Source: Flavobacterium aestivum (lineage in GTDB: Bacteria; Bacteroidota; Bacteroidia; Flavobacteriales; Flavobacteriaceae). Taken from it: a stretch of DNA of 64,000 nucleotides. This document shows positions 31,949 through 64,000 of the stretch, one piece after another (the first letter of the stretch is position 1; every line of letters begins with the position of its first letter). The DNA lies in contig NZ_CP113977.2 of NCBI RefSeq assembly GCF_026870175.2, positions 2,108,001 through 2,172,000 of the forward strand, given 5' to 3'. The notes beneath the pieces are model-generated. The model searched no databases, was not told where the DNA came from, and saw only the letters and a list, made by a program, of their open reading frames with translations. The position numbers and the translations under genes are program-made.

Positions 31949-32020
31949 CTTTTTGTGATTTATATTTTTAGATATTTTATATTGCTCAACTGTTTATTTG
32001 TTTAGTAACTATGCTATTTT

Positions 32021-32180
32021 ACAATGACTGCTAATACCCCAGCCAGTCTTAAGCTGATGGGAATTTTTGTTCCTTGGGTTGTTTTATCACCAAACCAAAT
32101 ATACAAAAAAGAAGTTTTCTCCGACAACTATCAGGCTACCTTAAAAGCCATTAGTTCAAAACAATAGTTAGTAATGGCGA
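32021..32180. repeat. Candidate cassette site 1 (degenerate palindrome)
   Basis: Left end TGACTGCTAAT, right end GTTAGTAATGGCG. The inner part (GGGAATTTTTGTTCC and CCAAATATACAAAAA) is shared with the site at 62796-62940, 30 kb away. This is the leftmost place where the palindrome family described in the findings is seen. Confidence 0.45.
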
Positions 32181-32186
32181 ATAATG

Positions 32187-32226
32187 AACAAAGCCCTTCT
32201 ATCTTTCGACGGAAGGGCTTTGTTTT
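32187..32226. terminator. Intrinsic terminator after serine hydrolase gene
   Basis: CAAAGCCCTTC (32189-32199) pairs with GAAGGGCTTTG (32212-32222). It follows the serine hydrolase stop by about 20 nt on the minus strand and closely resembles the terminator at 34428-34461. Confidence 0.88.
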
Positions 32227-32244
32227 GCTGATTTAATTTTAAAT

Positions 32245-33573
32245 CTATATTATTTTGTCTCCTTTTTTGGTGCTAAGACCTTGGTAGACTGTTATTCCTA
32301 TGACTTTTCCATTCTCAACTTTAAACTTTACTCTAATGTCTTCTTCTTTTACAAAGAAAGAGTTCTCTTTGTCTGCAAATATTTGGATCTTAGGTTCATT
32401 TTTTATTTGTGCAAATAATTGATTATCAATACGTGCTATTTTTATATGATAATCTGTATTTATCTCATAGTCGCCCACATATTTTTCTAATACATCATCA
32501 CTAATTTTTGTTTCCTCAAAAAAGCGGTATGGCTTATCGTAAAGAATTGCTAAAATGGAAGTTCCGATTGATTCAATTTCTGTGTTATATATATTATTTA
32601 ACAAAATTACGCACACATCATCTTCTTCAATTCTTCCAAAATAACTGGTAAAACCCTCTATGTTTCCACCATGTGAGATCACCTTTTTTTCATATAAAGT
32701 ATCTATAAAACACCCCAATCCATATCCCTCCAAAAAAGGGGTATAGGCTTCTTTTAAAGTTGATTTTTTTAATACTTTGTTATTTAGCAATCCTTCATGC
32801 CATAAATATAAATCGTGTGCCGTAGTATATAATGCTCCTGCCGAATAAGTGACGGTTGAATCCCAAGGTATGGATTGCTCATATTTGTTTTTGGAGTATT
32901 TAGAATAACCAGTTGCTTTTTGGGTACTATTTAATCCCGAAAAATCAAAACCGCTATGATTCATTTTTAGGGGTTTAAGAATTAGTTCCCTAACATTAAG
33001 TTCGTATGGCTTTCCTGTAATTTTTTCGCTAATCAGTCCTAAAAGTTGATAGCCAGAATTGCAGTATGAATATTGTGTCCCAGGCTCAAAGTAAAGTGGT
33101 TTATCGACATAGAAAGACAGCATTTTCTCTTTACTCATATGTAATTGCTTGTTTTCTTTGAGAAATAAAGGATCTCTAAAGATTTCAGGAAGACCAGAAG
33201 TGTGTGTCAGTAAATGTTTGATCGTTATGTTTGGGTTGAACTTAAATTCTGGGAAATATTTGCTTATTTTATCATCCAGAGTTAATTTATTTTGTTCCGC
33301 TAATTTTAATATAACTGCTGAGGTAAATTGTTTTGTTGTTGATCCTACTTGATAGATTGTATTTGGTGTGTTACTGACATTGTTTTTTATATCTTGAAAT
33401 CCATACCCTTTTTCTAATAGTATCTTTCCTTTTTTACTTACCAGTACAGTTCCATTAAATCGATATAGGTTTGTTGCTTTATCAATAAGGGATTCTATTT
33501 TTTTATCAAATTCTTGTGCATTGCTGTGTAATGATGCAATAATAGCAAACAGTGTAATTAGTGTTTTTTTCAT
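32245..33573 (-). CDS. Exported serine hydrolase (beta-lactamase class C / PBP-like)
   Basis: 442 residues from the ATG at 33573, which gives the signal peptide MKKTLITLFAIIASLHSNAQ; the ATG at 33648 would add 25 residues. Family Pfam Beta-lactamase: SxxK motif S78-T-T-K81 in YQVGSTTKQF, YxN-type motif in YSYCNSGYQLLG, and the third motif in SHGGNIEGF. A C-terminal domain of about 100 residues follows. Such enzymes are periplasmic peptidases or esterases; true beta-lactamase activity is not implied. It is one of two related serine hydrolases here (see 40463-42112). Confidence 0.9.
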   Translation of the reverse strand: MKKTLITLFAIIASLHSNAQEFDKKIESLIDKATNLYRFNGTVLVSKKGKILLEKGYGFQDIKNNVSNTPNTIYQVGSTTKQFTSAVILKLAEQNKLTLDDKISKYFPEFKFNPNITIKHLLTHTSGLPEIFRDPLFLKENKQLHMSKEKMLSFYVDKPLYFEPGTQYSYCNSGYQLLGLISEKITGKPYELNVRELILKPLKMNHSGFDFSGLNSTQKATGYSKYSKNKYEQSIPWDSTVTYSAGALYTTAHDLYLWHEGLLNNKVLKKSTLKEAYTPFLEGYGLGCFIDTLYEKKVISHGGNIEGFTSYFGRIEEDDVCVILLNNIYNTEIESIGTSILAILYDKPYRFFEETKISDDVLEKYVGDYEINTDYHIKIARIDNQLFAQIKNEPKIQIFADKENSFFVKEEDIRVKFKVENGKVIGITVYQGLSTKKGDKII

Positions 33574-33932
33574 GATTTTGGTTAGTATAGGATAGTGGTA
33601 AGTGGTTATAAAAGAGTGGTGTATGCTGATAAGGAAATCTAAAAGCATGATACCAACCTAATTTGGTTAATTGAAGATCAGAGTTCTTTTTGGTTAAAAA
33701 GTATCACTCGTTTCTGATAGCAAAGCTCCGTTAATAGGTCTTGCTTAAATGTTGATTTAAAATAAGATTGTTTTTGCATTTTGGTTAGTTAGTTAAGAAT
33801 AGGACGATTAGCTAGCTGAATTGTTACAATCTTTTTTTGTCTACAATTTTTTAGGGCTTTGAAAAGCATAGAATTGGCAAAAACATTCAACAAACAAAAT
33901 AAACCAATCCTGAATTTTAATTGATTGGGATG
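33574..33932. other. Gene-poor spacer of 359 bp
   Basis: No gene can be supported. A 33-codon minus-strand frame (33779-33678, MQKQSYFKSTFKQDLLTEL) has little to recommend it. TTTTGGTTAGT occurs at 33576 and again at 33779, close to the ATG of the serine hydrolase and of that small frame, so a partial duplication of a leader is possible. CCAATC/GATTGG at 33904-33928 forms a weak hairpin at the DUF2809 gene stop. Confidence 0.4.
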
Positions 33933-34313
33933 TTATCTTAATATCTTTTTAAACCAATATTTTTCGACAATGATTACGATTGTAATTCCCGCAATATACG
34001 TTAGTAAATCAAGCCATGAGGATGAAGTTCCTATAACCGTTCTGGCAATTTTTGAATTTTCAAGACCAAGTTTTTCGACTATATTCAGATATTGAAGAAA
34101 TTCTGTTGCAAAAGAGAAAACCAATACTGATATCGCAACAGTTATAATTGGTAATTTGAGAAATGATCTAACAAAGCAATAAATTAAAATCACAACCAAG
34201 ACATCTCCCATATAGGGTCTGATAAAACGATCATGTACAAAAAGAGCAATCATGATCTCTATTATAAAAATCAAAATTGTTAAGGCAAAGTAGTTTCTGT
34301 TGAATGTCAGCAT
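33933..34313 (-). CDS. DUF2809 membrane protein
   Basis: 126 residues, four predicted TM helices: ALTILIFIIEIMIALFV, VLVVILIYCFVRSFLK, ITVAISVLVFSFATEFLQYL and WLDLLTYIAGITIVIIVEKY. The DUF2809 pattern is clear: RPYMGDVLVV after the first helix and GTSSSWLDLLTYIAG near the end. Related to VanZ-like small integral membrane proteins; function unknown. Single gene. Confidence 0.85.
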   Translation of the reverse strand: MLTFNRNYFALTILIFIIEIMIALFVHDRFIRPYMGDVLVVILIYCFVRSFLKLPIITVAISVLVFSFATEFLQYLNIVEKLGLENSKIARTVIGTSSSWLDLLTYIAGITIVIIVEKYWFKKILR

Positions 34314-34427
34314 AATGCTAATTTAGTTTTTTAAAATCAAGTAAGGAAAGAAAAGACGAGTGATACCCGAGTAATCAGAGAAGCCAGTAACATGTTACAA
34401 TACTTGACGTTTATTATACAAAATCAA

Positions 34428-34466
34428 CAAAGCCTTTCTGTCGGAAGATAGAAGGGCTTTGTTTTA
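34428..34466. terminator. Intrinsic terminator after PEBP gene
   Basis: CAAAGCCTTTC (34428-34438) pairs with GAAGGGCTTTG (34451-34461) with one G-T pair. Stem, tail and the bases up to the stop codon resemble those after the serine hydrolase at 32187-32245. Confidence 0.85.
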
Positions 34467-34489
34467 AGGATTTAGTTTTAAATCTTATA

Positions 34490-35050
34490 TTATTTTTTCT
34501 CTCTTTGGTAATACGTCACAATACTTGCTTTAGCAATGGTATTCGACCATAAATAGTACCCAACTGTTGCAGGATCTGTGTTAGCATCTAGGCCTAATTT
34601 GTCTGTTTTTAATGCGTATACCGTAATTATGTACTGATGTATTCCGTGGTTTTCTGGAGGGCATGGTCCGCCATATCCTGCAGCGCCATAATTTGTAATA
34701 CTTTGAATGGCTCCTTTTGGTGCTAGATTTAATTTTATATTTCCTGCATTGGCAACTAATTCATTAGTGTTATTTGGAATATCAAATACCAACCAATGCC
34801 ACCATCCACTGCCAGTTGGAGCGTCTGGATCATACATAGTGACTGCAAAACTTTTTGTGCCTTCGGGTGCATTAGCCCAAGATAATTGTGGAGATTGGTT
34901 TTTGCCTGTGCAACCAAAGCCTCCAAATTCCTCTGTTTTCGTTGCTTGTCCGCCCAAATCCTTGCTGCTTAAGGTAAATGTCTTTTGGGCAAAAATGGCA
35001 CTTGTTGTAAATAACAAACTAAGTAGTAGTGCTAAATTAATCTTTTTCAT
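34490..35050 (-). CDS. Exported YbhB/YbcL-type PEBP protein
   Basis: 186 residues, signal peptide about 1-21 (TTSAIFAQ). Phosphatidylethanolamine-binding/RKIP family: SPQLSWANAPEGTKSFAVTM, the conserved DPDAPTGSGWWHWLVFDIP and YGGPCPPENHGIHQYIITVYAL, with His of the anion-binding pocket. Bacterial homologues are periplasmic or cytoplasmic proteins with unclear ligands. A TACCTTTG -7-like element lies at 35085-35078 on the minus strand, 27 bp upstream of the start. Confidence 0.92.
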   Translation of the reverse strand: MKKINLALLLSLLFTTSAIFAQKTFTLSSKDLGGQATKTEEFGGFGCTGKNQSPQLSWANAPEGTKSFAVTMYDPDAPTGSGWWHWLVFDIPNNTNELVANAGNIKLNLAPKGAIQSITNYGAAGYGGPCPPENHGIHQYIITVYALKTDKLGLDANTDPATVGYYLWSNTIAKASIVTYYQREKK

Positions 35051-35077
35051 TTTTTTATTTGTTTAAGAATTAGACTG

Positions 35078-35085
35078 CAAAGGTA
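35078..35085 (-). promoter_or_regulatory. Possible -7 element of the PEBP gene
   Basis: Minus-strand TACCTTTG matches TAnnTTTG. A -33 partner at the expected spacing is not evident. Confidence 0.35.
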
Positions 35086-35141
35086 ATTGACCAGAAAGCC
35101 TTTAGGTTATTTTAAAAAGCTCTAAAAGTGTTTCTAAAAGT

Positions 35142-35981
35142 TCATTTTGATAATTGAAATTGTTTTGGAGTGGTATTGTATTTTATTTTGAAGGCTTGGG
35201 TAAAACTTGATAAACTTTCAAATCCAACTTCATAATAAATATCAACAGGACGTTTCTTTTTATTACTCAACAAGTAAGCGGAATATTCTAATCTCTTTTC
35301 CTGAAACCATTTAATGGGGCTTGTTTGGTAGTGTTGTTCAAAATTCCTCTTGAATGTAGAAATGCTCATATTGCATAAAAAGGAAAGCTCCTGTATAGTT
35401 AAATTGTTGAGTTTATTGCTCTCAATTACTTCTGTAAAATGTCTTTTCTGACTGTCTTGGTAGGTGAGTATATTGTTTAAAAACTCGGTGCCGTTTTTGT
35501 GTATTAGATAGGTCAATATTTCTTCAAATTTAGTTTGCAATAAGCTTCTTTGAAGTGAATTATTATATTCTTTTATTTTAATCAAACTCTTGACAAAATG
35601 AAGAATGTAATCATCATACTGAAATATCTCGTAGGGTTTAGAATTTGAATTAACCGTTGTTGTGAGCTTGTTTTTTTGCGAAAATTTAAGCAATATCTCA
35701 TCATCAAAAAACAATAGTATGCTTTGATAAGTATTGGTTTCTGAAAGATTTTCAGTCATTAAACAATTTCCTGATTTGATTAACAAGAATGCATCATTGT
35801 TAATAGCAGTAGTTTTGTCTTGAGTGATAAGTTCTTTTGTGCCTTCCAGTAAAAAACTAAATGCATTCTTTTTCAACATAACTTTATTCTTGACAGAAGG
35901 ACTGGTTATATGATAATCAAAAATTTGAACCTCGCTTTCTGTGTCAATATTTAAATCATTCGGAAGATGTTGAATGTCCAT
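35142..35981 (-). CDS. AraC-family transcription regulator
   Basis: 279 residues. N-terminal effector domain of about 180 residues of the kind with FLLEGTKELITQDKTTAINN and SILLFFDDEILLKFSQ; C-terminal AraC HTH pair (about 185-279): LNNLTIQELSFLCNMSISTFKRNF and RPVDIYYEVGFESLSSFTQA, ending KYNTTPKQFQ. No ligand is known. It lies 91 bp upstream of the PEBP gene on the same strand and could regulate it. Confidence 0.9.
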   Translation of the reverse strand: MDIQHLPNDLNIDTESEVQIFDYHITSPSVKNKVMLKKNAFSFLLEGTKELITQDKTTAINNDAFLLIKSGNCLMTENLSETNTYQSILLFFDDEILLKFSQKNKLTTTVNSNSKPYEIFQYDDYILHFVKSLIKIKEYNNSLQRSLLQTKFEEILTYLIHKNGTEFLNNILTYQDSQKRHFTEVIESNKLNNLTIQELSFLCNMSISTFKRNFEQHYQTSPIKWFQEKRLEYSAYLLSNKKKRPVDIYYEVGFESLSSFTQAFKIKYNTTPKQFQLSK

Positions 35982-36011
35982 TGTGTAATGCGTCTTTAAT
36001 TTCTATCTAAA

Positions 36012-36085
36012 GTCCCAACAACTATGAGAAGGGTTGGAACTGTTTACCCAAATGTATATATTTAAGATAAAGTTTACAAACACAA
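36012..36085. repeat. Candidate cassette site 2, family B core
   Basis: 36041-36082 contains TTTACCCAAATGTATATATT followed by AAGTTTACAAA, a block also found at 40361-40402, 45301-45342 and in diverged form at 38445-38492. It lies just upstream of the AraC gene start. Further right (36151-36172) the bases CGCAAAGACGCAAAGCG resemble the 20-bp palindrome at 56517-56570. Confidence 0.5.
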
Positions 36086-36194
36086 ATAGAATATTATTTC
36101 AAGCTTTAAGCCTCAATATTTTCTTGTAGCTGTATGGTGTTTTATTTGTTCTCGCAAAGACGCAAAGCGTTTTGTTTTTTAGTTTTGTGATTAT

Positions 36195-36752: not shown

Positions 36753-36811
36753 ACTATTTTGTTTAAATCAATTAGGAAATTGCTGTCTGTCTGTTGAAGT
36801 TTGTACTGTCA

Positions 36812-36962
36812 ACAAAGGATTATGCATAGCGTTCCGCTGGCTTCGGGAAGTTAAGGCTAGCGGAACGATTTATTTCTAATAAAGATACAATTTTTCGTAA
36901 AGAAAATGTCAAATGGTCTAAGCAACATCTATCATGACAAGTTAATGTTAGCTATAGTTGTT
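36812..36962. repeat. Candidate cassette site 3
   Basis: Inner perfect stem CGTTCCGCT / AGCGGAACG (36830-36868), with right end ATGTTAGCTATAGTTG reaching the stop of the SRPBCC gene. Left end is less clear. It divides the DHFR-like unit from the ArsR-SRPBCC unit. Confidence 0.5.
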
Positions 36963-36968
36963 TTTCTT

Positions 36969-37472: not shown

Positions 37473-37477
37473 TTTTT

Positions 37478-37795: not shown

Positions 37796-37821
37796 TTTAA
37801 TTATGCGCTACTATATGGTTG

Positions 37822-37852
37822 CAAATATACATGCAATTATTTGGTTGCGCAA
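37822..37852 (-). promoter_or_regulatory. Promoter of the ArsR-SRPBCC operon
   Basis: Minus-strand TTG (37852-37850) followed after 20 nt by TATATTTG (37829-37822), 26 bp before the start codon. The region also has repeated GGTTGC segments at 37818 and 37843 that could bind the ArsR protein (inference). Confidence 0.55.
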
Positions 37853-37855
37853 TTA

Positions 37856-38117
37856 TTTTTGCCAATTTTTTTAGTCAAAAAGAAAATAATGTAAAAGTTT
37901 GTATTTGTAGAGTGCTGTTAGACAGTTGTTTTAAGCGTTCTAGGCTTTATGAAGATGGGAGATTTCTGTTGTAGATGTTTACAAATATACCGAAATGATT
38001 TAAAGAAAAAGTTGAAAAATAGGGGAGAAGTGTAAACACCGACTCTTCCCGATATACATTAAAGTCTCATTTGTTCACAACTGCTATTTACAGTTTCGTT
38101 TAACTTAATGTCTTCTT
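37856..38117. other. Spacer between ArsR operon and small membrane gene
   Basis: No gene is seen. GGGAGAAGTG...GACTCTTCCC at 38023-38050 forms a short palindrome, and TTTACAAATATACCGAAATG near 37978 recalls the family B block of the other spacers. It may be a decayed cassette site. Confidence 0.35.
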
Positions 38118-38530: not shown

Positions 38531-38533
38531 GTT

Positions 38534-42813: not shown

Positions 42814-42960
42814 ACGGTCACCTAACGTTTTTATTACTTGGTGATGTGACGGATTAAGGAAGCTAAAATTTCGGTTAAGCACTGCTTTGTAAGTATAAAA
42901 CCAACCTTTAATTAAGTCTGAATCTCGTCATATTGCCAAACTGCAGTTTCAGCCGTTTTT
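42814..42960. repeat. Candidate cassette site 6, family C
   Basis: Left arm GTCACCTAACGTTTTTATTA then CTTGGTGATGTGACGGATTA; right arm CGTCATATTGCCAAACTGCA then GTTTCAGCCGTT. The arms are imperfect reverse complements. Centre and arms closely match the site at 61197-61336. The right end touches the stop of the ABC ATPase gene. Confidence 0.75.
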
Positions 42961-46462: not shown

Positions 46463-47032
46463 TTAATTAATTCGTTTGCGAATACGACTTAAAGCTTGTG
46501 GTGTAATACCCAAGTATGAAGCAATGTGTTTTAACTGTATTTGTTGTAAAAGACTAGGATTTTCTTTTATTAAGGATAAGTAACGTTGTTCGGCAGTTTG
46601 AGTTAAAAAACTTCTTTCTCTTTTTGCCTTTCTTAAGTACAGTTGCTCCATTAATAGCCTACCAATACGGTCGCCTCTTTTTGTGTTATTAAGTATGTTT
46701 TGTAGGTTTTCATAGCTTATTTGCCACAACTTGATGTCAGTAAGTGATTCAATGAAACAAAACGAAGGGGTTTTGGTCAGAAAAGAGGAGACTTCACCCA
46801 AAAACCAATTTTCAAAAGTAAATAATAAACAGATTTCCTTGCCATTGGAATCTAAGTAATAATAGCGAGCAGATCCCATTTCTATAAAGCTTAAGTATTT
46901 TTCAACCTCCCCTTGGTGTAGTATTATGCTATTTTTTTTAAATTCTTTAAATGTTGCTAGTGATGAAACGTACTTTAATTCATCATCACTAATGTCAAAG
47001 TGATTTTTAAAAAACTTAATAAAATTGTCCAT
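46463..47032 (-). CDS. Crp/Fnr-family transcription regulator
   Basis: 189 residues: cNMP-type beta roll (KEFKKNSIILHQGEVEKYLS, ICLLFTFENWFLGEVSSFL) and C-terminal winged helix ending LKHIASYLGITPQALSRIRK. The shared TAEQRYLSLIKENPSLLQQI segment makes it a close paralogue of the regulator at 55897-56463. No Fe-S Cys motif. Likely controls the Coq4-like and small membrane genes that follow. Confidence 0.9.
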   Translation of the reverse strand: MDNFIKFFKNHFDISDDELKYVSSLATFKEFKKNSIILHQGEVEKYLSFIEMGSARYYYLDSNGKEICLLFTFENWFLGEVSSFLTKTPSFCFIESLTDIKLWQISYENLQNILNNTKRGDRIGRLLMEQLYLRKAKRERSFLTQTAEQRYLSLIKENPSLLQQIQLKHIASYLGITPQALSRIRKRIN

Positions 47033-47049
47033 AATTAGTACGTCTAGTT

Positions 47050-47202
47050 ACAATGACTGCTAACGGTTTAATGCTTGGTATTCAGGCAGGATTTTTACCA
47101 CAAATATAAAATAAGAAGCCTATATTTCAAAGCTAGAAAAACCTTTTATACAAAGAACAAAATCCAGCTTGATGCCAAACCTTTGTTGTTGGTTTGTTGT
47201 TT
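47050..47202. repeat. Candidate cassette site 9
   Basis: Left ACAATGACTGCTAACGGTTT then AATGCTTGGTATTCAGGCAG; right AAAATCCAGCTTGATGCCAA then CCTTTGTTGTTGGTTTG. Arms GGTATTCAGGCAGGATTTT and GGCATCAAGCTGGATTTT match well. The left end is 18 bp from the Crp/Fnr start and the right end 5 bp from the peroxiredoxin stop. Confidence 0.8.
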
Positions 47203-50263: not shown

Positions 50264-50420
50264 AATGAGCGCCAACGATAGGCGGCTTGCATCTAATGAT
50301 GTGAATATCGTTAAACTATGACAAATATAAACCAAACTTTCAGTTATTAGAGAGTATTTTCTTAAAGAATCAAAGAATTATATCATTGTTGCAAACCGCA
50401 TTTATCTGCTTTATTTTTGG
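50264..50420. repeat. Candidate cassette site 12
   Basis: Left AATGAGCGCCAACGATAGG then CGGCTTGCATCTAATGATG; right ATATCATTGTTGCAAACCGC then ATTTATCTGCTTTA. GGCGGCTTGCATCTAATGATG (left) and the complement of the right arm TGCGGTTTGCAACAATGATA agree over about 20 bp. The left end is 36 bp from the esterase start, and the right end overlaps the next stop. Confidence 0.75.
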
Positions 50421-51420: not shown

Positions 51421-51879
51421 TTATTTTACAGCTATAAATATATCAACTTCTGCGTTTTTCGGGTTTTGAGCTTTTTCACCATACACTTCAAAGTCGGCTG
51501 TATAGGTTCTGTCTAAATCTGAATTCCAAATTTTTGTCCATTCGTCAAAAACCATTCCTTGAAAAATATCTCCTTTGGCTACAAATTTTTCATACTCAGC
51601 TTCTTCAAAAGTTTTACCCACCATTCCGTTCGGAATATTGCTGAGGTTTTCAACTTTGCAACCTAAAATAGTAGTGTAAGGCTTTGTATGGTCCTTTTCG
51701 TAGTCAGTATAAACACAGAAAAGAGTATCGTCAAATTTGTTGGGGATTTTTTCTGTGATTCCTTCGGCCATAAATTTATTCCAAAGCGCAGGAATGTCTT
51801 GTCCAGCTTGTCCGTTTTCGTTTGTTGTGCGTACTGAAATACCGATAACGCAAAATGATTTTATTTTTTGGATGCCCAT
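51421..51879 (-). CDS. GyrI-like small-molecule-binding protein
   Basis: 152 residues, GyrI-like/SOUL-type effector-binding domain: IKSFCVIGISVRTTNENG, IPALWNKFMAEGITEKIPNK, FCVYTDYEKDHTKPYTTILG, and the late FEVYGEKAQNPKNAEVDIFI, which closes the domain. Such domains bind small hydrophobic or charged ligands; stand-alone members are common beside WYL/YafY regulators. Gap to the DUF1801 gene is 2 nt. Confidence 0.9.
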   Translation of the reverse strand: MGIQKIKSFCVIGISVRTTNENGQAGQDIPALWNKFMAEGITEKIPNKFDDTLFCVYTDYEKDHTKPYTTILGCKVENLSNIPNGMVGKTFEEAEYEKFVAKGDIFQGMVFDEWTKIWNSDLDRTYTADFEVYGEKAQNPKNAEVDIFIAVK

Positions 51880-53879: not shown

Positions 53880-54024
53880 TGTATTGACTAGCGGTTTTCG
53901 GTTTGGTGAAGGCAGGGCGTTCGAGGCACTATTGCTTGGCTAATATACAAAGTTTAATAAAAGCACAAAAGCTGAAGTTTGCACTTCAGCCCTGCTTTTT
54001 CCTAAACCGATGTTGTATGTCTTT
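53880..54024. repeat. Candidate cassette site 16, family E
   Basis: Left TTGACTAGCGGTTTTC then GGTTTGGTGAAGGCAGGGC; right GCCCTGCTTTTTCCTAAACC then GATGTTGTATGTC. CGGTTTGGTGAAGGCAGGGC matches CGGTTTAGGAAAAAGCAGGGC (complement). The centre shares CAAAAGCTG and CACTTCAGCCC with the site at 62001-62148. The left end is 16 bp from the upstream gene start. Confidence 0.8.
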
Positions 54025-55242: not shown

Positions 55243-55394
55243 GTATACAACGGTTTGAGTATTACCGAAGACATATAAATTGAAGTACTTCAGTATAGCT
55301 AAAGTACAAAAGCCAATAGAAGTGCACAAGTTCAGTTTTGCAATTCGATCTCGCTTTTGGTATTACCTCATTAGAGGTTTGGGCTTCTCGTTAG
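55243..55394. repeat. Candidate cassette site 17
   Basis: Left TATACAACGGTTTGAGTATT then ACCGAAGAC; right GCTTTTGGTATTACCTCATT then AGAGGTTTGGGCTTCTCGTT. GAGTATTACCGAAGAC pairs with the complement GAGGTAATACCAAAAG. The stop of the DoxX gene (TTA at 55391-55393) lies inside the right core CGTTAGCC. Confidence 0.78.
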
Positions 55395-55896: not shown

Positions 55897-56463
55897 TTAA
55901 GAAATGCGTTTTCGTATCCTGCTCAATGCCTGTGGAGTAATACCAATATAAGAGGCAATATGTTTTAATGCAATTTGTTTTATGAGTTTAGGTTGTTCGG
56001 TAAATAAATTAAGGTAACGTTGTTCGGCAGTTTCGTTTAGTAACGAAAGTTCTCTTTTTGATTTTTTCAGAAACAAATCTTCACTTGCTTGTCGTCCTAT
56101 TGCATTTCCAATTTCTGTTTCATGGTAAATTGCTTGAAGATCTTTATATGTTAGTTGCCAAAGTGTCGTAGTTGTCAAAGTTTCTATGTGATAAGTAGAT
56201 GGTATTTGAGTCAAAAATGAATCATAGCCGCTTACGAAACCATTGTCAAACGCAAAAGCAAATGTTAGGTCGTTTTCTTCCTTTGGAATATAGATACGTA
56301 TAATGCCAGTTTCAACAAATGAAAGGTGATTTTCTACTTGTCCGGCTTTTAGTAGAAAGTGATTTTTAGGAAATTCCTGTTTTGTAAGTTTTGAGGAGAA
56401 AATCTGCCAGTCCTGCTCAGTCAGTTTAAATGTCTGTTCAAAATATTTTCGGATTTGTTCCAT
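55897..56463 (-). CDS. Crp/Fnr-family transcription regulator
   Basis: 188 residues, beta roll (KQEFPKNHFLLKAGQVENHL, LTFAFAFDNGFVSGYDSFLT) and C-terminal HTH with LKHIASYIGITPQALSRIRK. A close paralogue of the regulator at 46463-47032 (shared SFLTQIPS / TAEQRYLNLF). It heads a two-gene unit with DoxX. Confidence 0.92.
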   Translation of the reverse strand: MEQIRKYFEQTFKLTEQDWQIFSSKLTKQEFPKNHFLLKAGQVENHLSFVETGIIRIYIPKEENDLTFAFAFDNGFVSGYDSFLTQIPSTYHIETLTTTTLWQLTYKDLQAIYHETEIGNAIGRQASEDLFLKKSKRELSLLNETAEQRYLNLFTEQPKLIKQIALKHIASYIGITPQALSRIRKRIS

Positions 56464-56863: not shown

Positions 56864-58006
56864 ATGAAAAAACATCACAATATTATTATTGCCGGGGCCG
56901 GCGGAATTGCCGAAGCGGTTGGTTTGTTATTGACTGAATGGAGCGACGTGATTCCTAGCCTTTTTATTGGAAATAGAACGCAAGATAAAGCCAAAAAAGT
57001 AGCTGAATGGATTACTGCAGGTACAACGAAACCCTGCAACATTCAAGATTTTCATCTCGCCGAGGAAGGTATTACTCCAGAAATGAAAGCAATATTCCAG
57101 AAAGCAGATATTCTTCTCGATTGCCTTCCCGGTAGTCAAGCTCCAAGAATGGCTCAGTTCGCTAAAGATTATCAGATGCATTACGCTAACCTCACCGAAT
57201 ATGTTGCTGAAACCGATGAAATAATGGCATTAGCCAAAGATGCTCAAACTGGTTTTCTGCTCCAGACCGGTCTGGCACCTGGTTATATAGACTTGCTTGC
57301 CAATGGGCTTTTTCAGCAGTTTTGCAATGATTTTGGAGTCGATCAAGTAGACAAGTTAGAACTTAAAGTTGGTGCCTTAACCATTCATGCCGTTGCACCA
57401 CATTATTATGGATTTACCTGGAGCCCTGTCGGTGTAGCAACCGAATACCTAAAAGACGCCATCGTGCTGCGGGATTCAAAAAAAACTGCTCTGCCTTCAC
57501 TATCGGAAAGAGCTACTATTATTATTGATGGCATTGCTTATGAAGAGGATCTTACCTCTGGTGGAGCCGCTGATTTGCCCGATGCCTTATCAGGAAAAGT
57601 AAGTACGCTAGATTACAAAACCTTGCGTCATCCGGGGCATTATGCTTGGGTTCAAGAGCAACTTACTACTTTAGGGAATACTCCTGACACAATTAAAAGC
57701 CTACAAGAAAAAATGGAGGCTGTAATACCTCACAATGAGGATGACCAAATTGTCTTGTATGCGGCAGTTGAGGGTAAAGATGCGACAGGAATTTTGCGCA
57801 GAAGGGAGATTGCAAAGCGTATTTTTTCTCAAAAAGTAGGAAAGCATCAATTGAGAGCCATTCAAACCACTACGGCTGCACCTTTAGTACAAGCAGCGCA
57901 ACTCCTGCTCGAAACTCCCCATAGTGGGGTTGTCCTCCAAAGCCAAATAGATCCAATGCTTTTTTTAAACGGAAATTATATCCTACCTGTTTACGGAAAA
58001 GTGTAA
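56864..58006 (+). CDS. Saccharopine dehydrogenase family protein
   Basis: 380 residues, the only + strand gene in the accessory region. The N-terminal Rossmann fold has KHHNIIIAGAGGIAEAVGLL with the GxGxxA pattern, then LFIGNRTQDKAKKVAEWITA, ADILLDCLPGSQAPRMAQFA and the segment HYANLTEYVAETDEIMALAK. Sacchrp_dh_NADP and C-terminal parts (TGLAPGYIDLLANGLFQQF) follow. These reductases act on lysine/glutamate-type or other amino-acid adducts; the substrate is not determined. The ATG at 56864 gives the usual N-terminus. It breaks the minus-strand run of the cassette array. Confidence 0.88.
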   Translation: MKKHHNIIIAGAGGIAEAVGLLLTEWSDVIPSLFIGNRTQDKAKKVAEWITAGTTKPCNIQDFHLAEEGITPEMKAIFQKADILLDCLPGSQAPRMAQFAKDYQMHYANLTEYVAETDEIMALAKDAQTGFLLQTGLAPGYIDLLANGLFQQFCNDFGVDQVDKLELKVGALTIHAVAPHYYGFTWSPVGVATEYLKDAIVLRDSKKTALPSLSERATIIIDGIAYEEDLTSGGAADLPDALSGKVSTLDYKTLRHPGHYAWVQEQLTTLGNTPDTIKSLQEKMEAVIPHNEDDQIVLYAAVEGKDATGILRRREIAKRIFSQKVGKHQLRAIQTTTAAPLVQAAQLLLETPHSGVVLQSQIDPMLFLNGNYILPVYGKV

Positions 58007-58503: not shown

Positions 58504-58512
58504 CGAGATATA

Positions 58513-58554
58513 TTAGTATAAAAAAAGAGAGACTTGTTGTCTCTCTTTTTTTGT
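58513..58554. terminator. Terminator copy A
   Basis: TTAGTATAAAAAAAGAGAGA then a hairpin AGAGAGAC/GTCTCTCT and T-run. The copy at 60421-60462 is identical outside the 6-nt loop. Confidence 0.9.
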
Positions 58555-58586
58555 AGGTTTTAAACATTCTCATTAAACCACTTTGG

Positions 58587-59999
58587 TTAATTATGTGATT
58601 CAGTTTCCAGTTGTTTAATTGTTTTCTTAGCAGCGGCCAATCGAATTTTTTTATTTTTTTCTACTAGTTTATGTACCGTCCAGTGTTCAATTTTGTGATG
58701 TAAAGGAACGAGTATGGCAGCAATACAAACCATTGTAAGGAGCATGAATATTGGAGAATGATGCGTAAGCTGACCCAGATAAGGATGCAAGAACAGATTC
58801 AATAATTCAAAGGCAATAAGAAGGGCAACAACTCCTAAAAAGTTAATTAGTTTTTGATTCGCTATAATAGTATGACTGAGTAGCAAAAACAAAATAACAA
58901 AACTAACCAGTCCTAAAGCAATGGCCGCATACTCCAGATTGTTTTTGTGTGTCTCGTTTTCCTGTTCTCTTTTTTCAGCGAGTTCTTTTTGTCGCTCTTT
59001 TTCCTGCATAAGCATACTTTCCAGTTTCTTTGTTTTGGTAATGCTATTCATACTGTCGGTTGAAACCTTATAAATTTCGTGGTATTTCAATGCACTGGCT
59101 AAATCCCCTTTTTCTTTGTAATTTTCGTAGAGCATTTTTGAAGCCAGCACTTTATAACGATCTAAGGAACTGCTTTCTGCTAACTTATACATCTTGGAAG
59201 AATAATAAAAAGTAGAGTCCACGTTATGGGCTTCTTTAAAGTAGGTTGCTAGTCCGTAGAAAGCCTTTATGTAATCATCATTTGTTTTGGAGGCTCGTAA
59301 TCCAAGTCGGAAATAAGCTAGTGCCAAAGTAGAATTATGCAATTTATTAAACGTTTGACCGAGACCTGACAGAATAATAACATCCCTATCAGAGGTTTGT
59401 TTCCCCTTCCTTTTTAGCAGTAGGTTCATGTTATAAGCCTGCTGGAAATACTGTAAAGCCAAATCATACTGTTTCAATACGAAGTAAACTCCTCCTATTT
59501 GATAAGTAGCTTCTATTTGCCAATTGAGCTCTTTAGTTTGTTTGGCAAGTGCAATGACTTTTTGTGAATATTCGATACTTTTATTTGCATCACTATAATA
59601 GGACATAAAATTGTACAATCGAAGCATGATCCTTGGATTATTTCGCTTCTCACCCAGCTGTATTGCTTTTAGGAAATGCTCCAGTGCTTTAGGTTGGTTG
59701 TCATTTTTACCAAAATAATACCCCAAAAAGGCCTGTCCAATGGCTTCGACATCTGGGTTTTGTTCTTTTTGACCTATTGCTATGATTTGATTGGGATAAT
59801 AAGTAGAGTCATCTAACCCTGCATTCTCGGTATCTGTCCAGATAAGCAACGCTTCGGTTTGCAAGCTGTCTGTTTTCTGATGACGCAACATTTGAAGAAA
59901 ATGATCCGCTATTCTCTTTTGTGCAGTGGCTGTTAGTGTTGTAAACAATATCAACAAAACTATTAAAGTGGTTTTTTTATTAAGTATGTTTTTGTGCAT
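58587..59999 (-). CDS. TPR sensor-like membrane protein
   Basis: 470 residues, signal peptide about 1-26 (LTATAQKR). About five TPR units between 70 and 320 (AIGQAFLGYYFGKNDNQPKA, ATYQIGGVYFVLKQYDLALQ, LSGLGQTFNKLHNSTLALAY, KAFYGLATYFKEAHNVDSTF, SKMLYENYKEKGDLASALKY), a basic heptad coiled coil (LMQEKERQKELAEKREQENE) and three TM helices at about 360-380, 385-405 and 415-440, then a basic tail. It resembles TPR sensor kinases without the kinase module. Bracketed by two XRE remnants. Confidence 0.85.
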   Translation of the reverse strand: MHKNILNKKTTLIVLLILFTTLTATAQKRIADHFLQMLRHQKTDSLQTEALLIWTDTENAGLDDSTYYPNQIIAIGQKEQNPDVEAIGQAFLGYYFGKNDNQPKALEHFLKAIQLGEKRNNPRIMLRLYNFMSYYSDANKSIEYSQKVIALAKQTKELNWQIEATYQIGGVYFVLKQYDLALQYFQQAYNMNLLLKRKGKQTSDRDVIILSGLGQTFNKLHNSTLALAYFRLGLRASKTNDDYIKAFYGLATYFKEAHNVDSTFYYSSKMYKLAESSSLDRYKVLASKMLYENYKEKGDLASALKYHEIYKVSTDSMNSITKTKKLESMLMQEKERQKELAEKREQENETHKNNLEYAAIALGLVSFVILFLLLSHTIIANQKLINFLGVVALLIAFELLNLFLHPYLGQLTHHSPIFMLLTMVCIAAILVPLHHKIEHWTVHKLVEKNKKIRLAAAKKTIKQLETESHN

Positions 60000-60383
60000 A
60001 AATAGATTGTTAGTTAATAATAGCTTATAAAGGTGTTAAAAACAAAAGTTGTGCCCTGTTATTTATTGCCGCTAACTTGTATAAACACAAAACTTTGCTT
60101 CCCATTTGTTAGCTTTTCAAATATATAACTTAATGACGAAAATGCTGATTAAAACATTCTGTTTTTATATCCTTTTTTTAAAATAACTTCTTTTTATCCA
60201 GTGTTTTATGGGAAATCACAAACGTTGTTCTTTAGCGAAAAAATCCTAGAGCAAGTAGTAGTAGTAAAAAGTCTTTTGAGAGTGAGAGATTGCTTTTTTG
60301 GGGTTGTGGGAGAGAGGTTATAATGGGGAAGCTAGTGTATAAAGATATTTTACTAGGATTGTCGAGCCAATTGCGGAGCTGGT
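60000..60383. other. Leader and spacer upstream of the TPR gene
   Basis: No gene. GTTTTTAACACCTTT (minus strand, 60043-60029) is the same 15-mer as the XRE leader at 58245-58259. GCTAAC (60071-60076) and GTTAGC (60108-60113) frame a 43-bp segment, a possible short cassette-site remnant. Confidence 0.4.
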
Positions 60384-60410
60384 TATTTAGAGAAACTATT
60401 GAAAAAATAG
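60384..60410 (+). pseudogene. XRE-family 3' end remnant
   Basis: TATTTAGAGAAACTATTGAA then AAAATAG reads YLEKLLKK-stop, the same C-terminal end as the XRE pseudogene at 58265-58503. Only the last nine codons are recognisable. The terminator copy B follows at 60421. Confidence 0.65.
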
Positions 60411-60420
60411 CAATATATCT

Positions 60421-60462
60421 TTAGTATAAAAAAAGAGAGACAGCAAGTCTCTCTTTTTTTGT
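60421..60462. terminator. Terminator copy B
   Basis: Same 42-nt block as 58513-58554 except for the loop (CAGCAA versus CTTGTT). It closes the XRE remnant at 60384-60410. On the minus strand it also lies before the TPR gene leader. Confidence 0.88.
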
Positions 60463-60529
60463 GGGTAGTAGTTAAAAAAATCATGTATTTATCCTAAAAA
60501 ATAACTTGAGTTTTTTAATGAATGCTGCG

Positions 60530-60640
60530 CCATACTATTATTAGGGCACGCCTCTCAATTATGAAGGTATCGCCTTTGCTTTTGATAGGCGCGCTTATGA
60601 TTTTTGAAGGCGATGCTTCTTAAATAAGTTGTTAGCTATT
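60530..60640. repeat. Candidate cassette site 18 (weak)
   Basis: GGTATCGCCTTTGCTTTTGA with GAAGGCGATGCTTCTTAA, and right end AAGTTGTTAGCTATTCGG before the GNAT gene stop. The stop-side motif AGCTAACAAC (minus strand) fits the family; the opposite end is not clear. Confidence 0.4.
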
Positions 60641-60650
60641 CGGATCTTGA

Positions 60651-61172
60651 TTAAATTTTCTGTGTTAATCTAAATAAAATCAGATTTGGATTTTCGGCTT
60701 CAATGCTTTCCAAATTTTTAAAATTTAATTTTTGAAGAAGGTTGGTCGAACTTTGATTGTCTTTGTGTGTTGATGCATCTATACTTTTTATTCCAAGTGT
60801 ATCGATTGCATACTGAATAACTTTCCTTGTGGCTTCAATCATTATTCCCTGTCCTTGATATTCTGTTCTTAGTTCGTATCCAATTTCGCATTTCTTTACA
60901 TCATTTACGAAGTCAAACAAACAGATTGTTCCAATTAGTTTTTCGTCGCCAGTTTTTGTAATCGCCCAATAAAGAGTCTCGTCATTTTCAAGTATAATTT
61001 TGATGAAGTTTAAAGCATCTATTAATGTTTTACTAGGTTTTCTATCAAGAAATTTATTTATTTCTTCGTCTGATCGTAACAGTAAAATTTCTACAGAATC
61101 ATTAATTGAAAGTTGCCGAAGCGTTAATCTTTCAGTCATTAATGTTGGGAAATTTTGAGAACCTTTCTTCAT
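60651..61172 (-). CDS. GNAT N-acetyltransferase
   Basis: 173 residues, GNAT (RimJ/RimL-type) fold: LTLRQLSINDSVEILLLRSD, TLYWAITKTGDEKLIGTICL, CEIGYELRTEYQGQGIMIEA with the acetyl-CoA loop QGQGI, and IDASTHKDNQSSTNLLQKLN. It would acetylate an amine; the substrate is unknown. The ATG at 61172 gives an 11-residue tail before MTERLTLRQL; the ATG at 61139 is an alternative. Confidence 0.92.
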   Translation of the reverse strand: MKKGSQNFPTLMTERLTLRQLSINDSVEILLLRSDEEINKFLDRKPSKTLIDALNFIKIILENDETLYWAITKTGDEKLIGTICLFDFVNDVKKCEIGYELRTEYQGQGIMIEATRKVIQYAIDTLGIKSIDASTHKDNQSSTNLLQKLNFKNLESIEAENPNLILFRLTQKI

Positions 61173-61196
61173 TTTATTTTAGATGGATTTTCAGCC

Positions 61197-61336
61197 TGAG
61201 AGCTAATTTTTTGCAGCTTGGTGATGTGGCGGATTAAGGAAGCCTAAATCTTCGAATAATGACTATTTTACAAGTACAAAACCAACTTCCCATTAAGTCT
61301 AAACCCACCATATTGCCAAACGGCGGTTAGCGGTTC
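61197..61336. repeat. Candidate cassette site 19, family C
   Basis: Left AGAGCTAATTTTTTGCAGCT then TGGTGATGTGGCGGATTAAG; right GTCTAAACCCACCATATTGC then CAAACGGCGGTTAGCGGTTC. Arms GCTTGGTGATGTGGCGGATT and GTTTGGCAATATGGTGGGTT (complement) match. The central part equals that of 42814-42960. Confidence 0.82.
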
Positions 61337-61372
61337 GTTGTTCTTCCTGTCATTCGTTATTGTTTTGTTCAA

Positions 61373-61933
61373 TTACTCCCATGGCAGGACATTTATATTG
61401 TCCCACCTTCTTTTAAAACTTTCTGTCATTGTTAAATAATTCTCTTTTGTCATTGTTAATTTGTTTGGCCTAACAACCATATCAAAAGCATCTTCAAGTC
61501 CATAAGGTGCAAAAATTTCAAATTTGTCTGACCACCTTACTCCAATTGCAAATGCAGACAACCAAGTTTCGATACCGTCTTCTGTTCTGTTAAATTTGTC
61601 AATAACATTTCCAAATTTTTTAGGATACCATTCGTAAACATATGCTTGATTTGTAATGTCGAGTTGGAACTTATGTGTTACTATTTTTTCAATATTCGTC
61701 TGATGTGATTTTTCTAATAATCGATCTTCGGTGTCAGAGTAATAAACAATATCAAAATCTTTCACATTTTCAAGGTTAGGTCTGCCAAGTATGTTATTCC
61801 ATATCAATTGAGTTATTGCTCCGCCAGCTAAATAATAGTCTGTTAAGCCATAGTCATTACATTTGTTTAATGTTTCAATGATTTCTGGACAATTATCTAA
61901 ATATGAAATGAGCTCTTTTCTTCGGTGTGTCAT
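61373..61933 (-). CDS. Nucleotidyltransferase-family protein (NTP_transf_6 type)
   Basis: 186 residues: YYLAGGAITQLIWNNILGRP, NVKDFDIVYYSDTEDRLLEK with the paired Asp of the D-x-D nucleotidyltransferase motif, ETWLSAFAIGVRWSDKFEIF and APYGLEDAFDMVVRPNKLT. These small pol-beta-like proteins are DUF925-type, often in toxin-antitoxin or modification context; the exact activity is unknown. Single gene between sites 19 and 20. Confidence 0.85.
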   Translation of the reverse strand: MTHRRKELISYLDNCPEIIETLNKCNDYGLTDYYLAGGAITQLIWNNILGRPNLENVKDFDIVYYSDTEDRLLEKSHQTNIEKIVTHKFQLDITNQAYVYEWYPKKFGNVIDKFNRTEDGIETWLSAFAIGVRWSDKFEIFAPYGLEDAFDMVVRPNKLTMTKENYLTMTESFKRRWDNINVLPWE

Positions 61934-62000
61934 TATTGTTACAGCTTTGAATATTATATTTAAAATCAGTCATTTTTAAAGTTTATAGGGTGTCGCTTAT

Positions 62001-62148
62001 AATGACCGCTAACGTTTCGGGGCTTTGCGTTCGGGCGGGAAATCGAAGTACAAAAGCTGGTTTTATTACTAATGTTTAATTGAAAAACTGCTATTGAACT
62101 TTTCACTTCAGCCCGCCTGAAGCAAAACCCTTGTTATCTGTCGTTTTT
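62001..62148. repeat. Candidate cassette site 20, family E
   Basis: Left AATGACCGCTAACGTTTCGG then GGCTTTGCGTTCGGGCGGG; right AGCCCGCCTGAAGCAAAACC then CTTGTTATCTGTCG. The arms are close complements with one gap. The left end carries the complete core. The centre shares CAAAAGCTG and CACTTCAGCCC with site 16. Confidence 0.85.
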
Positions 62149-62157
62149 TTCGGTCGG

Positions 62158-62763
62158 TTAATAACGCCATTTTTTTACAGTTTCTTCGCCAATGATTTCA
62201 GACACAATTTCTTCTGTCCATTCTTCGACATCTTCTTGTTCAGCTTCTCCAAAAAGGTCAGATTGAGCAAATATTAAACATCCCTTTAAATAGTCGTCAA
62301 AAGTGTCAACCATTTTAGTTAAGTATGGTTTGTTGTCGTGGTCATAATAGAAAATTTCCTTTGTGTCACTGTGAAAACAAAACATATTTCCGTTTCCTAA
62401 ATAGTCACTGAATGAAACCAAAAAAGGTAGGTGCATGTTATCAACTTCGGTAAAGTCAGGTCCGTATTCAGGGTTTTTTGCCCAAATGTTTTTTATCCAA
62501 CCAATTTCATTTAAGTCTTGTAATTGTTCTCCAATATTTGCAAGCCCAAACTTTTGGTAGAAAGTTTTTAAACTATCTGGTAAAGTTGTTTTCAATCGAT
62601 TTTCAAGTTTTTGTATTTCATCAATTGAAATTGGTTCTTTTAATTCGTCATTCCAATTTTCGGCTATAGAATGGATTATTAATTCTGTCTTAATTTCCCA
62701 ATTGGCATCTCCAATTTTGTCAAATGGAATGATAATATCTTCTTTTTTATTTATTTCAAGCAT
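62158..62763 (-). CDS. SMI1/KNR4-family protein
   Basis: 201 residues, SUKH fold: ISIDEIQKLENRLKTTLPDS, LKTFYQKFGLANIGEQLQDL, LPFLVSFSDYLGNGNMFCFH and SDTKEIFYYDHDNKPYLTKM. A second orphan immunity-like protein with no toxin beside it (the first is at 44683-45219). The acidic C-terminus (EEDVEEWTEEIVSE) is unusual. Single gene. Confidence 0.87.
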   Translation of the reverse strand: MLEINKKEDIIIPFDKIGDANWEIKTELIIHSIAENWNDELKEPISIDEIQKLENRLKTTLPDSLKTFYQKFGLANIGEQLQDLNEIGWIKNIWAKNPEYGPDFTEVDNMHLPFLVSFSDYLGNGNMFCFHSDTKEIFYYDHDNKPYLTKMVDTFDDYLKGCLIFAQSDLFGEAEQEDVEEWTEEIVSEIIGEETVKKWRY

Positions 62764-62795
62764 ATTCGTTCGTCTTTAAGCGTTGTGTTTGTAAA

Positions 62796-62940
62796 ATGGC
62801 AGGTAACTTCCCGCCGGCTTTATGAATTTGGGGATTTTTGTTCCCGAACCATTCCGAAAAGACTGAAGCCAAATATACAAAAAGAAGGTTCCATTAAACA
62901 CTAAAACCCCAATTTCACAAAACCACTGTTAGCTGCCGTT
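62796..62940. repeat. Candidate cassette site 21, family A
   Basis: Left GGCAGGTAACTTCCCGCCGG then CTTTATGAATTTGGGGATTT; right AAAACCCCAATTTCACAAAA then CCACTGTTAGCTGCC. GGCAGGTAAC pairs with GTTAGCTGCC (9 of 10). The stop of the DUF1772 gene (TTA at 62929-62931) lies inside the GTTAGC core. Confidence 0.85.
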
Positions 62941-63417
62941 TTTCTTTTCTTGTGAAGAGTTTACTGCTGACATACTAGTTGTCCAAGCTATAAGTGTAAG
63001 GGCAACTAATTCCGCTATTGTGCGAACAGTGTGAAGTGTCCACCATTTGTCACGAAGTGAAGTCCAGTTGCTAGGAAGCGAATCAGTTTTCCAATTCAGC
63101 ATTTCAGTTTGGATAGGAAGATTTCCAAATGTTGAAATGAAAATACATGATGCAAAAAATATGGCAGCAATTAGTAAAATAATATAAACGCTTCTGTTGT
63201 TACGCTGAAGAAATGCTGAAATAATTGTTACGATTGTTGCGGCTATAACAAGTGAAACCATCGGAATGTTTAATGATAAAACTAGCTGTTGTTGCTGTTC
63301 CAAATAGGTGGCAGGTGTATAGTTGTTAGGGTTTAGTCCTATTAAAATACCAAAGCTTGTCCCAGCAAGTAGGGCAGCTAAAATAAGATTGATAAAGCGT
63401 ATGAAAGTTATAGTCAT
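62929..63417 (-). CDS. DUF1772 (anthrone-oxygenase-like) membrane protein
   Basis: 162 residues with four TM helices (FINLILAALLAGTSFGILIG, MVSLVIAATIVTIISAFLQ, SVYIILLIAAIFFASCIFIS, TVRTIAELVALTLIAWTTS). The DUF1772 signature is visible: NLPIQTEMLNWKTDSLPSNW and LRDKWWTLHTVRTI. Some members are named anthrone oxygenase, most are uncharacterised. Its stop lies in the cassette core. Single-gene unit. Confidence 0.88.
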   Translation of the reverse strand: MTITFIRFINLILAALLAGTSFGILIGLNPNNYTPATYLEQQQQLVLSLNIPMVSLVIAATIVTIISAFLQRNNRSVYIILLIAAIFFASCIFISTFGNLPIQTEMLNWKTDSLPSNWTSLRDKWWTLHTVRTIAELVALTLIAWTTSMSAVNSSQEKKNGS

Positions 63418-63481
63418 AATATGTCAATGGTTTATAGTTTTGTTTCTCTGACAATATTTAGAATTTCGTTCCAGCTGGCAA

Positions 63482-63580
63482 AAATGACAGCTAACGTTCT
63501 GGTACTACAGCGGGTTTGGGACTAAATTAAGCCCATTCTTCGGATTTGCCAAATCCGTTGTAGTAGCTGTTGGTGGATGG
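63482..63580. repeat. Candidate cassette site 22
   Basis: Left AAATGACAGCTAACGTTCTG then GTACTACAGCGGGTTTGG; right CCAAATCCGTTGTAGTA then GCTGTTGGTGG. TACTACAGCGGGTTTGG (63503-63519) and the complement TACTACAACGGATTTGG agree at 15 of 17 positions. A compact and clear copy. Confidence 0.85.
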
Positions 63581-63592
63581 ATTTATTATGTT

Positions 63593-64000
63593 CTATTGGT
63601 ATTCATTCAAGGTTTCAGTATTTATTTCTCCAATACAATTCTTTGTTGTTGAAGCATAATTTTTATAAAAAACCCAATATGTTGTTTTTATATCGAAATC
63701 TCGAAGTAACATTAAGTTAATTGTTTCATTTCTGTTTTTTATTTTCACATTGATTTCCAATGAGCCGGTATTTCTTTGACCTGTTTCTTTTTTAATATTT
63801 TTTATATCAATCAACAAATTATCATTTTTTCTGATTGTATCATTTATTATTAATTCATAATTTTTGTCAGCAATTTTTTCAATTTTTTCTTTTATTTCTG
63901 TTCGACTCAATTTACTTTGAAAAGAGCTTAAACTAAAAATAGAAATAAACGATGAAATTGTCAAAATTGCTGAAACTCTATAATATTTATTTCCTTTAGA
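63593..64000 (-). CDS. Exported protein of unknown family (5' end outside the window)
   Basis: The frame runs open from the window edge (64000) to the stop at 63593. The visible N-terminal part reads SKGNKYYRVSAILTISSFIS then IFSLSSFQSK, a hydrophobic signal-like stretch, so the start lies beyond 64000; a TTG at 63964 is inside this signal and not the real start. The rest (LSRTEIKEKIEKIADKNYEL, SLEINVKIKNRNETINLMLL) is not recognised. It is the next unit of the array. Confidence 0.6.
   Translation of the reverse strand, partial: SKGNKYYRVSAILTISSFISIFSLSSFQSKLSRTEIKEKIEKIADKNYELIINDTIRKNDNLLIDIKNIKKETGQRNTGSLEINVKIKNRNETINLMLLRDFDIKTTYWVFYKNYASTTKNCIGEINTETLNEYQ

Follow-up and report, generated by a model that had tools for sequence, protein, structure and literature searches.

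A decaying cassette array in Flavobacterium aestivum, very probably from an integron-like system of Bacteroidia with a different integrase and a different folded site

The stretch of DNA analyzed here (the window) is 64,000 nt of Flavobacterium aestivum, positions 2108001-2172000 of C1, the single contig of its 4.58 Mb genome (G000). Very probably, it contains the greater part of a decaying cassette array on the chromosome, belonging to an integron-like system of Bacteroidia with a different integrase and a different folded site. In intact relatives, the order is integrase, attI and then cassettes, in one direction in nearly all the cases seen. The integrase, which lacks the additional (I2) domain specific to integron integrases (IntI) and carries an extra N-terminal domain, would recombine the bottom-strand hairpin of a cassette, folded in vivo, with attI next to a GTT. 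Because recombination is proposed at this point, a cassette would run from TT... through its own hairpin and move as a unit. In F. aestivum, only the decayed C-terminus of the integrase gene seems to be left; the array has therefore probably become frozen, with its far half eroding. It runs from about 32 kb of the window to 7.3 kb beyond the window end, stopping before prfA. An earlier reading made from the sequence alone (the sequence-only reading) described a run of small genes on one strand, and the list of open reading frames (ORFs) bears this out: of the 40 ORFs taken as genes between 31,370 and the end of the window, 39 are on the minus strand, the sole exception being 56864-58006. The sites are best kept near the array head, beyond the window, and those between 32 and 60 kb are mostly degenerate.

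In integrons, a cassette begins within the core after the preceding palindrome, and the outer arm of its hairpin (R'') should therefore match the core at its own start, one gene away. Such own-cassette R-box pairing marks integron cassettes that are cut beside GTT. The core pattern by itself is weak evidence. Exact CGTTAGCNGTCATT cores occur in the window at 47052, 62001 and 63483 (minus strand), and with up to three mismatches there are 21 matches where 11.8 are expected, a number reached by 2 of 100 shuffles. Six of the nine exact CGTTRSCNGYMATT matches in the genome fall inside the array, all on the minus strand, and one more lies in a second small cluster. The loose pattern is uninformative, because the one-mismatch counts for CGTTRSCNGYMATT (35 + 39 genome matches) resemble those of a reversed control (31 + 28), and the pairing test was therefore used in its place. 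Across 14 units of F. aestivum, 80 of 98 R'' positions pair with the start of their own cassette and 38 of 91 with the adjacent core; none of 100,000 permutations reached 80, for strings that were chosen by eye, which could favour the reading. The test based on an automatic site finder gave 62 sites in nine genomes and 53 consecutive pairs, with 336 of 371 positions pairing with the own start (within-array permutation: mean 204.5, sd 10.6, maximum 250; 0/20,000 reach 336). Six or seven of the seven positions pair with the own core in 47/53 units, and with the adjacent core in 5/53. R'' is thus complementary to the start core of its own cassette, as in integrons, and the suggestion of a distinct or very diverged cassette array of Bacteroidota gains support from this pairing. 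The trend recurs in weaker form in canonical IntI arrays from the phylum (51 pairs, with 0.57-0.69 at positions 4-10).

Elsewhere, arrays of this kind lie directly downstream of a related integrase, which upholds the integron-like interpretation. In the named genomes, they start just after the integrase and on the same strand; G030 is the single genome with a divergent order of integrase and array. A chained pair (consecutive sites, at least 6/7) was found in 11 of the 80 loci of the named collection, many of whose contigs stop just past the integrase. All are Bacteroidota records: Flavobacterium enshiense, F. aciduliphilum, Winogradskyella ursingii, Seonamhaeicola aphaedonensis, Algibacter onchidii, Aquiflexum, Cyclobacterium, Zunongwangia mangrovi, a Sphingobacteriales genome and two further Bacteroidota. 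An attI is also present next to the integrase gene: in all 21 site-bearing loci, the first R'' finds a core between the integrase and the first site (6-7/7, the best GTT of the interval), the next-best candidate reaching at most 4/7 in 19 loci, and in 18 loci the core is no more than 300 bp from the integrase. The letters preceding it often resemble GTATATA. A further sample was drawn by rule (minus-strand, near full-length class-wide matches, in list order, start >6000; n = 22, including the later-added G538 and the already examined G095, both with arrays). Within 8 kb downstream, at least one site was found for 14 of the 22 integrases and at least two for 12, with a pair of at least 6/7 in 10 and a pairing attI (at least 6/7) in 13; the control gave one site in 280,000 strand-bases. 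Among four plasmid loci, a Chryseobacterium plasmid (L190) alone is chained (own pairing 7, 6, 7 and 2), though without a pairing attI, and no chain was found in L191, L192 or L193. L190 also carries three copies of a 137-nt hairpin (10177, 12272 and 14653) with equal score and equal shown ends, one of them about 35 nt past a core; these look like gene-less cassettes.

Between prfA and the first F. aestivum cassette lie an attI-like core (C1:2179324, minus strand; L036:7324) and the decayed C-terminal end of an integrase (L036:7452-7663). The latter has 18 of 21 residues identical to the integrase of G009 (E 5.7e-6) and, over 213 bp, shares 60% identity with the intact F. luminosum gene (E 7e-9), which is two genes from a prfA that is 79% identical to that of F. 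aestivum. Since the fossil matches an intact gene in the same prfA neighborhood, the F. aestivum lineage very likely once had an integrase at the array head and has since lost it. The sequence-only reading had pointed to the window flanks for a tyrosine recombinase, and the piece found about 7.5 kb past position 64000 is a decayed remnant of such a gene; the window is without an integrase because the remnant sits at the array head, past its end.

Cassette sharing was assessed among 99 cassettes, and gain and loss were compared between species rather than between strains of one species. The clearest case, which also speaks for an integron-like array, is a 979-nt cassette common to two genera (G030 and Algibacter onchidii) with 89.5% identity and unlike flanks, whose match starts 6 nt before and ends 2 nt after the cassette boundaries, so that both ends fall at cores. 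A cassette of G011 is duplicated at 97.5% identity; the match ends at +2 but extends 155 nt into the preceding site.

Sites from other genomes gave eight blastn matches in the window at E <=1e-5 (37943, 42837, 53939, 55297, 61209, 62010, 62804 and 63492), all on the minus strand. The plus strand had a single match (E 5e-3), and the first 31.9 kb had none at E <=0.01. The attC-like sites of the window, all on the minus strand, are as follows.

63483..63583, minus strand: site J, attC-like, from R'' (CCACCAAC) to R' (CGTTAGCTGTCATT); finder score 18.0; blastn E 7e-27 to a G004 site
62795..62940, minus strand: site K, attC-like, terminal AGTTACCTGCCATT; 83% over 132 nt to a G011 site, E 1.8e-34
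62001..62147, minus strand: site L, attC-like, terminal CGTTAGCGGTCATT; finder score 19.6; E 3e-18
61197..61340, minus strand: site M, attC-like, partly decayed, R' = ATTAGCTCTC; E 1.7e-9
55297..55374, minus strand: decayed attC-like site; 80% over 50 nt to a G030 site, E 2.4e-7
53939..54017, minus strand: decayed attC-like site; 78% over 79 nt to a G030 site, E 3e-12
47048..47190, minus strand: decayed attC-like site with an exact core at 47052-47065; finder score 14.4 (below 16); E 2e-3
42837..42948, minus strand: decayed attC-like site; 71% over 114 nt to a Flavobacterium aciduliphilum site, E 3e-6
37943..38091, minus strand: decayed attC-like site; 79% over 149 nt to a Flavobacterium enshiense site, E 1e-25

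The R'' of site J pairs 5/7 with its own cassette start and 2/7 with the adjacent core; the values are 6/7 for both in site K and 5/7 for both in site L. Site M has an own pairing of 6/7 and resembles 42828-42922 (83% and 73% similarity). At the working threshold of 16, the finder reports ten sites in the F. aestivum array, two of them in the window (63571 and 62135), and the best score on the opposite strand is 15.4. Seven of the nine copies singled out as clearest by the sequence-only reading are supported by these blastn comparisons, while the copy at 47050 is marginal (E 2e-3) and that at 50264 is without a match. The palindromes said to separate most units fared worse: only 4 of 26 intergenic regions in the array fold better than shuffles at z < -3, compared with 7 of 14 outside it. 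Since folding z-scores fail to separate the array from other intergenic DNA, that description was given up for the far part of the array. When weak sites were chained under relaxed rules, the array strand had 23 pairs and the opposite one 20, no signal past the strong sites, and Rfam at gathering scores has no match in the window. Elsewhere in the genome, a second cluster of three sites (C1:3,624,215-3,626,520; L187) is without a PF00589 gene nearby, and there are lone blastn matches, the best in L038 (E 1.7e-9).

The anatomy of the sites sets them apart from canonical attC. In the own-pairing profile, R-box positions 1-10 pair at 0.74-1.0, position 11 in 0/53, and positions 12-15 at 0.92, 0.91, 0.83 and 0.74, with background thereafter. 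Position 11 in well-paired units is C.A in 44/47, G.A in 2 and A.A in 1. In 14 named loci, selected since they showed sites, it is C.A in 22/29 and G.A in 7/29, and it pairs at 0.08 across all 39 pairs, which include ones mis-registered at a double AAC; in the by-rule sample the counts are 17/24, 6/24 and, for A.A, 1/24. In canonical sites this position pairs at 0.55. A top-strand C.A is a G.T wobble on the bottom strand, a reading that fits most sites, not all. An A at R' +11 is present in 60/62 and 53/53 sites (two sets) and in 5/29 sites of the canonical control. The canonical R-box consensus is GTTRRRY, and R' fits it in only 2/62 and 3/53 sites; the consensus discriminates poorly, with 6/29 canonical control sites fitting by the same finder. 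The core is thus non-canonical, as had been noted, but the divergence from canonical attC also includes R-box length, position 11 and the L stem. The latter pairs without gaps over 17 columns, leaving no extrahelical base of the kind found in integron sites. Watson-Crick pairs number 872/1054 in the first set (wobbles 92 bottom and 40 top, others 50), 728/901 in the second (90, 24 and 59) and 297/493 in the canonical control (40, 18 and 138), with unequal finder thresholds (16 for variant and 14 for canonical sites) and a scoring (top A:C 0.3, top G:T 0) that leans towards bottom wobbles and could favour the reading. A one-sided bulge of 4-5 nt separates the R and L stems in at least 51/62 sites, the offset being more variable in the second set. 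Loop lengths differ too widely between sites for a covariance model. Modelled as an excised circle, the bottom strand is predicted to be more stable in 45 of 50 sites (mean -30.3 vs -27.1 kcal/mol).

The Bacteroidota promoter-like motif TAnnTTTG occurs in hairpin loops, directed towards the next gene, in 22/62 sites (4 reverse; shuffled mean 4.4), 15 of the 22 belonging to G011 (L040), and in 12/50 of the second set (6 reverse; shuffled mean 2.8). Two sites of the window have such loops (37943-38091 and 62804-62933). Integron cassettes are mostly without promoters and share one orientation, and the array has the single orientation; judging by the motif, certain cassettes may bring a promoter for the following cassette.

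The recombinase of the relatives matches the IntI model TIGR02249 in two halves, with the middle part skipped, and four members score 187-212 bits against a cut-off of 265. Aligned to IntI4 (2a3v), it covers residues 14-205 and 246-319 with a gap opposite 206-245, so the I2 domain is absent. The KDR and HxLRH motifs are spaced 58-63 apart in 14 of the 15 loci with arrays (in L146 the motif was not found); the spacing is 56-67 in the set's other recombinases and 100 in four IntI. The extra N-terminal domain of about 70 residues matched no Pfam family over the cut-off. For the F. enshiense protein, an AlphaFold model (pLDDT 86, pTM 0.68; residues 331-341 poor) has IntI4 as its closest fold in the PDB (2a3v, E 1.4e-16, TM 0.63, rmsd 7.9), which is the closest solved relative by sequence too. 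In a quick tree of 62 rows, 11 IntI form one clade (SH-aLRT 100) with the variants outside it and not resolved as a single clade. A profile of the variant family at E <=1e-75 matches 84 of 150 genomes of the genus and 147 of 295 of the class; the N-terminal domain is missing from some matches, and some integrases come without an array. Among the records listed, the public names are generic (e.g., tyrosine-type recombinase, XerD), and one plasmid copy, from the Chryseobacterium plasmid with the chained array, is named 'site-specific tyrosine recombinase/integron integrase'. Several forms of the gene are unusual. Two integrases (L043 and L044) are of about 610 aa, with a long N-terminal part that by eye resembles three copies of the small domain; three relatives have remnants of 85-100 aa (L053, L054 and L055), that of L053 beside two sites; and five related frames of 320-321 aa lie in a row at G444:C1:996988-1014829.

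An ordinary integron remnant (CALIN), in which a canonical IntI assembled the cassettes on merely diverged attC sites, would share the cassette boundaries and attI position seen here; 84 of 296 genomes in the phylum have a canonical IntI above the cut-off, and one array gene is of the Cass2 family. We nevertheless judge it quite improbable. No IntI was found in F. aestivum with PF00589 or TIGR02249, nor over the TIGR02249 cut-off in 40 relatives, and among the 34 genomes listed with any match at the level of the same class or closer, one (G075) exceeds the cut-off. Moreover, the fossil at the array head is a member of the variant family, and R-box position 11 and the L stem set the sites apart. 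It is about as improbable that the host XerC/XerD moves modules, as in dif-module systems, with the linked integrase incidental: the variant integrase is as near to the XerA, XerC and XerD models as to the integron model, and F. aestivum keeps two Xer-like genes, but the arrays directly follow the variant integrase on its downstream side and do not occur in unrelated stretches, and the boundary signature reaches across one gene, unlike a short double-stranded site. Hardly tenable are repetitive extragenic palindrome (REP)-like elements or intergenic terminators without recombination, for although the sites are intergenic, palindromic and repetitive, some with a promoter-like motif in the loop, in a region that has terminator-like hairpins, their outer arm pairs with sequence a gene away, they are clustered in a single orientation and tied to an integrase, and the pairing test held when repeated on the by-rule arrays (24 consecutive pairs at 6/7 or better). 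The scatter in all orientations expected of REP elements was likewise not seen, the exceptions being the second cluster of three and the few lone matches.

Several observations weigh against the preferred reading, a variant cassette system with its own integrase. Eight of the 22 by-rule integrases are without any site within 8 kb, certain units pair with neither core or with both, and the distal sites of the array are mostly beyond recognition. The N-terminal domain is without an ascribed function. Some sites have G.A at position 11, a combination that gives no wobble on either strand, and the wobble reading is to that extent incomplete. Two shared cassettes are not clean at both cores: the match between G011 and F. 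enshiense (L086) ends at -77 and +33, and that between L114 and L185 at -5 and -173.

The genes of the array for which a family was sought include the following.

63593..63964, minus strand: cassette gene, 123 aa, no Pfam family (ORF list, Pfam search)
62929..63417, minus strand: cassette gene, anthrone oxygenase-like, PF08592 (E 1.6e-8)
62158..62763, minus strand: cassette gene, SMI1/KNR4 (SUKH) family (E 4.8e-17)
61373..61933, minus strand: cassette gene, nucleotidyltransferase, PF06042 (E 1.2e-35)
60651..61172, minus strand: cassette gene, GNAT acetyltransferase (E 4.1e-26)
51421..51879, minus strand: gene of the Cass2 'integron-associated effector binding protein' family, PF14526 (E 7.4e-26)

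Two terminator-like hairpins (58513-58558 and 60421-60466, 87% alike) flank a TPR gene at 58587-59999 and adjoin the only plus-strand gene (56864-58006, saccharopine dehydrogenase-like). The TPR gene region (58513-60466) and this neighboring gene are probably not cassettes. Three related genes for Crp-like (cyclic-nucleotide-binding) regulators are spread along the array (31370-31948, 46463-47032 and 55897-56463). Reading ten genes as defence genes gave an exonuclease-type effector, a weak SAVED match and generic ATPase matches, and the idea was set aside.

The closest known counterparts are chromosomal integrons, which likewise have the boundary next to GTT, own-cassette pairing, an attI beside the integrase, mostly one gene direction and a hairpin predicted to be more stable on the bottom strand. 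The Bacteroidia system differs in an integrase without the IntI insert, with an extra N-terminal domain and outside the IntI clade, and in sites whose R box is longer, with a mismatch conserved at position 11, and whose L stem has no gaps. Because the boundaries and attI follow integrons while IntI and the extrahelical bases are wanting, the system, integron-like in its apparent working, is by these features a variant. In the reverse integrons of Spirochaetota, as outlined in parts of PMC9668308, the orientation is reversed and the integrase is a true IntI; integrase and cassettes share one direction in both systems, but that of Bacteroidia is without the IntI-specific domain. The CTX phage and other elements use Xer via a hairpin, according to passages of PMC4792948 and PMC7790495. 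Both they and the Bacteroidia system lack the I2 domain and have a folded stem without extrahelical bases, but the latter has a linked integrase of its own, together with an attI and a long run of cassettes that carry cellular genes.

We lean, if only slightly, towards the broader view that Bacteroidia hold a second integron lineage, so far unrecognised, that would recombine folded single-stranded sites without an I2 helix and with no extrahelical base in the L stem. The stem itself would encode the choice of strand, by positions that pair better on the bottom strand as G.T, above all R-box position 11. Such a lineage could be a survivor of a pre-I2 state, or cassette capture may have been invented independently. 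A search by title and abstract, with most subscription journals outside it, found no description of such flavobacterial arrays or of an I2-less integron integrase, and an earlier report is possible. IntegronFinder requires the IntI-specific domain, as stated in a section of PMC9668308, and its 2022 survey names one complete integron for Bacteroidetes proper, that of Salinibacter (PMC9024848); the variant family would therefore bear on integron counts. In the portions of PMC7790495 and PMC4792948 that treat the subject, the I2 helix is the innovation that enabled integron integrases to recombine single-stranded sites, and the joint origin of I2 and extrahelical bases is a chicken-egg paradox, for which missing intermediates are named in the former. 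A natural cassette system without I2 or extrahelical bases would make the question of their origin testable, and it may show that gene-capture systems exist without the part deemed essential.

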